DNA of 64,000 nucleotides from Conexibacter sp. SYSU D00693. Its GTDB lineage: Bacteria; Actinomycetota; Thermoleophilia; Solirubrobacterales; Solirubrobacteraceae. The stretch lies in NCBI RefSeq assembly GCF_017084525.1, contig NZ_CP070950.1:4154001-4218000 (forward strand), given 5' to 3'. Every line of letters starts with the position of its first letter. The stretch's first letter is position 1. The translations under genes and the position numbers were made by a program. Under the pieces are notes generated by a model. It did no database searches. It saw nothing but the letters and a program-made list of their open reading frames with translations, and was not told where the DNA came from. Positions 55,579 through 56,696 of the stretch are shown here, in pieces.

Positions 55579-55607
55579 GGCACGGGCGCCCACCGCGCGT
55601 TCGTCCC

Positions 55608-55635
55608 GACGGGCGGCCCTCCGGGGCCGCCCGTC
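55608..55635 (+). terminator. Terminator after the flavoprotein gene
   Basis: GACGGGCGGCCC, loop TCCG, then the exact 12-nt complement, 30 nt after the stop. Confidence 0.65.
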
Positions 55636-55637
55636 GT

Positions 55638-55686
55638 CGTGAGTGGGGAGTTGCGCTCGCATGTCGAGCGCAAGTCCCCACTCACG
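55638..55686. repeat. 49-bp hairpin repeat, copy 1 (3' side of the DUF559 gene)
   Basis: The left arm starts CGTGAGTGGGGAGTTGCGCT; the right arm is complementary over 22 positions with a single G-G mismatch, around loop CATGT. The stop codon of the DUF559-like gene (55682-55684) lies in the right arm. Confidence 0.9.
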
Positions 55687-56581
55687 TGCGCAGCCGGTCG
55701 TCCAGGGCAGTGAGGAGGGCGGTTCGGCCGGCGTGGACGTCTCGCCATCGAACGCGCCAGACCTCCCAACCACCGGCCTCCAGGTCGCGCTGCTTCGCCG
55801 CGTCGCGCTCACGTGCGCTCCGGGTCCCGTGGTACGCGCGGCTGTCGGCCTCGACGACGAGCCGCTGGACCCGCCAGAGCACGTCGACCTCCCAGAGCGT
55901 CCCCGACGATCCCGCCACGTGCTGGTTGAACCGAGGCGCCTTCCTCAGGGAAGCACCCCCGAGCAGCGCCTTGAGCCGTCGTTCGAGCTCGCTGCGCAGG
56001 ATGTCGGGGTCGTCGGTGAGCTCGCTGACGGCACGCCGCAGGCGTCCGGCGCCACGGTTGCCGCGGCAGCGGTCGAGGACCTCCGCAAGAGCCGCGCCAT
56101 CGAAGAGCCGCTCGCGCACCGAGGCCTCGCACGCTGCGACGAGCAGCGACGGCCGCGTGTCGGCGATGTCGAGCAGCGTCCGTGCCACCGAGGTGCACGG
56201 GATCCCGTCTCGGCTGGTGCGATCCTGCGGTGCCAGTCGGCGACGGTGCGGCGTGATCCCGTCGCAGTCACGTCCGCAGTCGCCCGTGACGGTGATGTGG
56301 ACCGTCGTCTCGGGGTTCGGCGCGATGCTCCAGAGCGCGCCGCAGGAGGTGTCGCTCAGCACCGCGTGCGCGCCGCCGGCGAGGACCGCCGCCATCCACG
56401 GCGCACGGGGGTGGAGCGCCCCGTGCCCGACGACGTACACGCCCCGGTGGACCTCCCGCAGGCGGCCCGCCTTGATGCGGCGCCGGATCGCGGGGTCCGA
56501 GAAGCCGAGCTCGGACAGCTGGGCGTGGGAGACCACCCCCTTCTGGATCGTCGCCAGGCCGGCGAGCGACCCCTCTCGCAC
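55682..56581 (-). CDS. AbiEi-like winged-helix + DUF559 endonuclease-like protein
   Basis: 299 aa from GTG 56581. Residues 5-55 are the AbiEi-type winged helix (ATIQKGVVSHAQLSELGF, RRRIKAGRLREVHRGVYVVG). The middle carries TSVARTLLDIAD, typical of this family. The last 90 residues are DUF559, a Vsr/PD-(D/E)XK-related fold: EVDVLWRVQRLVVEADSRAYH gives the acidic residues, then QRDLEAGGWEVWRVRWRDV. Such genes are often annotated as type IV antitoxin-domain proteins but have no toxin partner here. DNA cleavage or binding is plausible, not shown. A start at 56635 would make hairpin copy 2 code for the first 18 residues and is less likely. Confidence 0.82.
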   Translation of the reverse strand: MREGSLAGLATIQKGVVSHAQLSELGFSDPAIRRRIKAGRLREVHRGVYVVGHGALHPRAPWMAAVLAGGAHAVLSDTSCGALWSIAPNPETTVHITVTGDCGRDCDGITPHRRRLAPQDRTSRDGIPCTSVARTLLDIADTRPSLLVAACEASVRERLFDGAALAEVLDRCRGNRGAGRLRRAVSELTDDPDILRSELERRLKALLGGASLRKAPRFNQHVAGSSGTLWEVDVLWRVQRLVVEADSRAYHGTRSARERDAAKQRDLEAGGWEVWRVRWRDVHAGRTALLTALDDRLRT

Positions 56582-56629
56582 GTGAGTGGGGAGTTGCGCT
56601 CGGCATTCGAGCGGAAGTCCCCACTCACG
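56581..56629. repeat. 49-bp hairpin repeat, copy 2 (5' side of the DUF559 gene)
   Basis: Same sequence as copy 1 except for the loop (GCATT) and one stem base; two mismatches in 22 positions. Its outer base is the last base of the GTG start codon read on the minus strand, so the hairpin occupies the leader of the gene. Confidence 0.9.
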
Positions 56630-56696
56630 GTCCACGCGGCGATCGTGGCGCCGCGCGCGTCACGGATCACCACCGCCGCGTCACGCCTTCGCGCCC

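Follow-up and report, generated by a model that had tools for sequence, protein, structure and literature searches.

A gene of Conexibacter sp. SYSU D00693 that encodes a predicted AbiEi-nuclease fusion was found to be bracketed by two near-identical 49-bp palindromes, and palindrome bracketing of DUF559-type genes was found to be general, extending beyond this one locus. We lean, with modest confidence, toward reading the gene and its two palindromes as a unit resembling REP/RAYT systems, with an unrelated nuclease that recognizes the palindromes of its own gene and is responsible for spreading them. This reading builds on the observed association of genes with palindromes, the matching of the two ends, the gene-specific palindrome families, the dispersed solo copies, the species-specific co-occurrence and the domain architecture.

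The window refers here to the whole 64,000-nucleotide stretch of DNA that was analyzed, and the features of the unit within it are listed in Table 1. A sequence-only reading had placed two near-identical 49-bp palindromes around a single gene, with the stop codon inside one hairpin and the start codon touching the other; alignment confirmed the palindromes, and both codons were located as described. Each palindrome was composed of 22-bp arms and a 5-nt loop, and the pair was 44/49 identical when aligned as direct repeats and 91% identical over 53 nt when aligned as inverted repeats. The ORF extends over 55682-56635 on the minus strand, with its TGA falling within the first palindrome and the likely GTG start sharing the last base of the second; use of an alternative upstream GTG (56633-56635) would make the ORF read through the 5′ palindrome. 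The neighbors of the gene were read as a flavoprotein and a sensor kinase, and no toxin ORF (AbiEii nucleotidyltransferase) was identified between these two. A terminator-like hairpin of the flavoprotein gene (55607-55636) stops 1 bp short of the first palindrome and lies outside the unit. The bracketing is not due to chance, since palindromes of this quality occurred at a background rate of 0.028 per kb in comparison loci and 13 copies of the palindrome (family A) were detected genome-wide.

Table 1. Features of the palindrome-bracketed unit, in window positions.
Feature	Position	Strand	Remarks
3′ palindrome of unit	55638..55686		49 bp; stop codon lies inside; family A
5′ palindrome of unit	56581..56629		49 bp; abuts the start codon; family A
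AbiEi-nuclease fusion CDS	55682..56581	(-)	299 aa; GTG 56579-56581; stop TGA 55682-55684
N-terminal AbiEi-like module	56009..56581	(-)	Residues 1-191; predicted palindrome-binding part; PADLOC and structure match
C-terminal Vsr/EDxHD-type nuclease domain	55685..55999	(-)	Residues 195-299; E200, D233, E244, D246, H251 and D260 conserved

DUF559 is akin to Vsr and other PD-(D/E)XK nucleases. Pfam analysis of the window protein identified AbiEi_4 and, at the C terminus, DUF559, with MTES_1575 just under the cut-off and no HUH/Y1 domain, while the PADLOC AbiEi models matched residues 6-177 (E-value 9.6e-33). When the AlphaFold2 model (mean pLDDT 92.6) was compared with known structures, residues 1-191 matched the whole AbiEi antitoxin 6y8q (Z 12.8, 181/195 residues), and residues 195-299 matched the I-Bth0305I homing-endonuclease domain 3r3p (Z 12.4, rmsd 2.1) as well as Vsr bound to DNA (Z 10.9). 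In an alignment of 68 sequences, D233 and E244 were invariant, with E200, D246, H251 and D260 conserved at 90% or above. These domain matches and the predicted fold identify the window protein as a fusion of a complete AbiEi-type antitoxin/repressor with a Vsr/EDxHD homing-endonuclease domain. The catalytic-type residues appear intact, as would be expected for an active nuclease; exact catalytic equivalence is not established, and cleavage is inferred.

AbiEi is reported to bind cooperatively to two 23-bp inverted repeats that are separated by 3 bp within its own promoter, bending the DNA (PMC7319586); this operator spans 23 + 3 + 23 = 49 bp and thus has the same size as the window palindromes. 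The 5′ palindromes also occupy the position expected of an AbiEi operator, an agreement of size and site for which there are no binding data. I-Bth0305I is reported to form a dimer on a target almost 60 bp long (PMC3943268). The AbiEi homology of the protein, the 49-bp operator geometry and the placement of 5′ copies at the start codon all speak for pure autoregulation, the main rival, by which the palindromes are AbiEi-type operators, the 5′ copy represses its own gene, the other copies form a regulon or act as decoys, and the nuclease has some other task, such as defense or repair, and moves no DNA. We regard this explanation as unlikely, as it leaves the 3′ copy at the stop codon unneeded and the nuclease unexplained; further evidence against it is given with the solo copies of other genomes below.

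Of the 13 family-A copies in the 4.43-Mb single-contig genome, two bracket the gene and 11 are solo, and other palindrome families were dispersed as well, so that solo hairpins, which the sequence-only reading had named as a check, were indeed present. Nearly all family-A copies were positioned between predicted genes, with convergent gene pairs flanking 6 of the 11 solo copies, as judged from the gene predictions of a basic GC-frame caller. The half-sites of most copies differed at one conserved position, resulting in a G.G or C.C stem mismatch depending on orientation. The solo copies were single palindromes and not gene-deleted units; no gene remnants were found beside them, and neither a constant tetranucleotide (GTAG or CGTC tag) next to family-A copies was evident by eye nor a target-site duplication at the palindromes obvious by inspection. 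Family A was not detected in any of 36 relatives, six congeners included, and the congeners had no DUF559 gene of more than 42% identity to the window gene. The absence of both locus and family from the congeners ruled out one outcome that would have refuted a mobile unit, namely a conserved locus without independent copies. A clean empty site between the flavoprotein and kinase genes, also proposed as a check, was sought in the congeners and not found, as the flavoprotein orthologs there precede different genes and DNA; no polymorphic insertion was found either. A single scan of the named genome collection with alignment A1 returned two weak matches. The DUF559/AbiEi-type family appears to be chromosomal, given that few or no plasmids and phages were found to carry it.

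Additional repeats were observed around the solo palindromes. A further dispersed palindrome, roughly CAACTGCGAACCGGTCCGCAGTTG and without an assigned gene, adjoined the family-A solo copies at L029, L033 and L040. A motif near GCACTGAGGAGGGGA, often accompanied by GCGTCCTCC, was located on one side of many solo palindromes (L030, L033, L034, L036, L063 and L071); the GCACTGAGGAGGGGA-type intergenic motif was also present upstream of the DUF559 genes L077/L079 and may belong to mosaic repeats.

Nine further DUF559-type genes of the Conexibacter genome, each aligning over the protein length, were examined and all were found to have end palindromes of differing sequence. Matched pairs at both ends were detected for five of the nine, and dispersed copies elsewhere likewise for five; the remaining four genes had a palindrome at the 5′ end. 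The matched pairs were as follows: (i) the gene at 1475255 was bracketed by family B (2 + 7 other copies); (ii) the gene at 3399582 was bracketed by family C (2 + 6 other copies); (iii) the gene at 513747 had an inverted pair, 85% identical over 79 bp, with relatives at three other places; and (iv) the genes at 839152 and 962645 were each flanked by a pair, of which one and two further copies, respectively, were detected within the ~170 kb of the genome that was covered. Families D, E and F had 3, 1 and 2 solo copies, a count that covers only ~170 kb of the genome. A duplicated repeat block at G000:C1:3788224-3788562 (L063) contains two family-B palindromes, ~289 bp apart, whose flanks are repeated as well. 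The palindromes of different DUF559 genes were mostly unrelated in sequence, so that the pairs expected around other genes of this type did recur, each with its own unrelated sequence. As read from the sequence, five genes, among them the window gene, have their stop codon within the first arm of the 3′ palindrome.

These positions bear on a reading of the palindromes as mere transcription terminators or mRNA hairpins that were duplicated by chance; a terminator together with a translational block was the alternative offered by the sequence-only reading. Many solo copies do lie just past stop codons or between convergent genes, as terminators would; however, no T-tract terminator was predicted, the flavoprotein gene already has a terminator-like hairpin of its own, the 5′ copies overlap the start of their own gene (with the start codon read in the loop in four paralogs), and the sequences are family-specific and absent from the congeners. 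This explanation is therefore held to be extremely unlikely, and an outcome in which the hairpins were found only as ordinary terminators beside unrelated genes did not occur. A search of Rfam for known RNAs gave only sub-threshold chance matches.

The generality of the bracketing was evaluated at the order level, where 50 DUF559 genes, including those of this genome, were compared with 198 control genes from the same loci. A strong palindrome was detected at the 5′ end of 18% and at the 3′ end of 16% of the DUF559 genes versus 0.5% each for the controls, and the 5′ and 3′ flanks matched each other (direct score of at least 25) in 9/50 DUF559 genes versus 0/198 controls (Fisher 3e-7). With the discovery genome left out, matched flanks at this score were found for 5/40 DUF559 genes. 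Across the phylum, matched flanks with a best score of at least 22 were found for 22/68 genes compared with 2/55 controls (Fisher 3e-5). End palindromes with a score of at least 12 were 26-57 bp long (median 46.5 bp), 49 bp being the commonest length. At the chosen thresholds, matched ends could not be detected for about two thirds of the DUF559 genes outside this genome, and no significant correlation was found between palindrome and protein similarity (Mantel r 0.22, p 0.08). DUF559/AbiEi genes were present in 98 of the 198 actinobacterial genomes sampled.

The recurrence of matched pairs with unrelated sequences at DUF559 genes, and not at controls, also argues against the palindromes being REP/MITE-like elements moved by another enzyme, for instance by the RAYT-like Y1 transposases of this genome, with the DUF559 genes having merely acquired them. 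Three Y1_Tnp genes in the genome make such a spreader conceivable; however, families A, B and C were not recognized beside Y1 genes, and one Y1 gene is accompanied by 31-bp hairpins of its own, distinct from these families, leaving this explanation very unlikely. The gene in question (G000:C1:3380575-3380850) is bracketed by the 31-bp hairpins TGCGAMGMAGGGGACTGTCCCCTTCTTCGCA (L154: 1338-1368, 2106-2136), an in-genome unit of the REP/RAYT type, and, as these hairpins differ in sequence, the REP/RAYT-type and DUF559-type systems appear to coexist in this genome.

Similar arrangements were detected in other genomes. In another genus of the family (G027), the palindrome of one DUF559 gene was present in 17 copies. 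In a member of another family of the phylum (G076), the gene lies between two copies of a near-perfect 50-bp palindrome that are 98% identical to each other, and 15 solo copies were found, each at most 90% identical to the bracketing palindrome; several of these directly follow stop codons, and the setting was convergent for three or four of eight. Two half-site types were observed in both family A and G076 (L264-L282), and most solo copies mix the two, giving a conserved stem mismatch or bubble; the gene-bracketing copies of G076 are perfect palindromes, unlike most of its solo copies. In Tsukamurella tyrosinosolvens NCTC13231, two 42-bp palindromes in inverted orientation flank the gene for WP_068740572.1, with a solo copy on another contig of the assembly that fills the gap between two convergent stops, six bases from each. 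Autoregulation would not account for such copies, as many are promoterless and lie between convergent genes or after stops, including the convergent copies of family A and G076 and the one in Tsukamurella. It is also not favored by a nuclease-free AbiEi-AbiEii operon of Microbacterium, in which no matched palindrome pair and no matched 3′ copy were found (n = 1, a weak control); an AbiEi-domain gene of Rhodococcus, equally weak as a control (n = 1), had no matched pair either.

The unit was compared with known systems. In REP/RAYT systems ('REPtrons' and TIRtrons; PMC3733652, PMC6006769), a gene is likewise flanked by a palindrome family that is also dispersed, copies lie mostly between convergent or co-directional genes, and several gene-specific families occur per genome. 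The differences are that the REP/RAYT enzyme is an HUH/Y1 transposase whereas that of the window unit combines AbiEi with a Vsr/EDxHD nuclease, that REP palindromes are 20-40 bp long compared with ~49 bp, and that no fixed GTAG/CGTC tag like that of REPs was evident by eye beside the family-A palindromes. By layout alone, the unit would in our judgment count among the REP-like systems, with its enzyme setting it apart. The REP survey of PMC3733652 did not cover actinobacteria. With the AbiE type IV toxin-antitoxin system (PMC7319586), the window unit shares AbiEi in sequence and predicted fold, and its palindrome equals the 49-bp operator in size; unlike AbiE, its AbiEi is fused to a nuclease, lacks an adjacent AbiEii toxin gene, and has a palindrome that is also placed 3′ and dispersed. 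Residues 195-299 share their catalytic fold with I-Bth0305I (PMC3943268) and Vsr, yet the window gene is free-standing and chromosomal, has no intron, carries an AbiEi-type DNA-binding module and is bracketed by its putative target. Caulobacter VsrA (PMC12907096) shares the DUF559/Vsr-like nuclease domain, with a proposed role in mismatch repair and no palindrome bracket reported. CGTC-type REPs, those of Caulobacter included, are without a known enzyme (PMC3733652), and a link to the DUF559 VsrA of Caulobacter (PMC12907096) may be possible. No paper that ties DUF559 or AbiEi-nuclease fusions to palindromic repeats was found in the open-access literature, and the earlier statement that no system of this form has been described remains standing within these limits.

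Because both ends of a gene carry matching palindromes whose sequence changes from gene to gene, the two ends must be kept similar by a process of copying. In the REP/RAYT-like reading, which is our preferred one, the duplex palindrome would probably be bound by two protein molecules at its two ~23-bp half-sites, much as AbiEi binds its operator, and occupancy of the 5′ palindrome would switch the gene off. Breaks introduced by the nuclease domain at palindromes or close to them would be repaired with another copy as template, which would carry palindromes, and occasionally the whole palindrome-gene-palindrome unit, into sites that tolerate them, mostly just 3′ of stop codons. Palindrome binding, cleavage, break repair and movement of the unit are all inferred, with binding resting on the homology to AbiEi and the agreement in operator size. 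The initial proposal that the gene and its hairpins form one REP/RAYT-like unit is nonetheless supported by the recurrent pairs, the solo copies and the absence from congeners. Whether these units represent a new class of selfish DNA, widespread in actinobacteria, in which the 49-bp operator of an AbiEi-nuclease is both the switch and the site of cutting and copying, with each gene spreading a private family, is close to an even call, and we put this forward only tentatively.

REP-type palindromes are among the commonest bacterial repeats. The only enzymes known with REP palindromes are HUH transposases, and a large group of CGTC repeats has no assigned enzyme (PMC3733652). If the proposed reading is true, a second, unrelated enzyme family with the REP layout would suggest that enzyme-palindrome partnerships had independent origins. 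The large uncharacterized 'DUF559/AbiEi' gene family would thereby gain a role, and many natural pairs of a nuclease and a long recognition site would become available, each directly testable.
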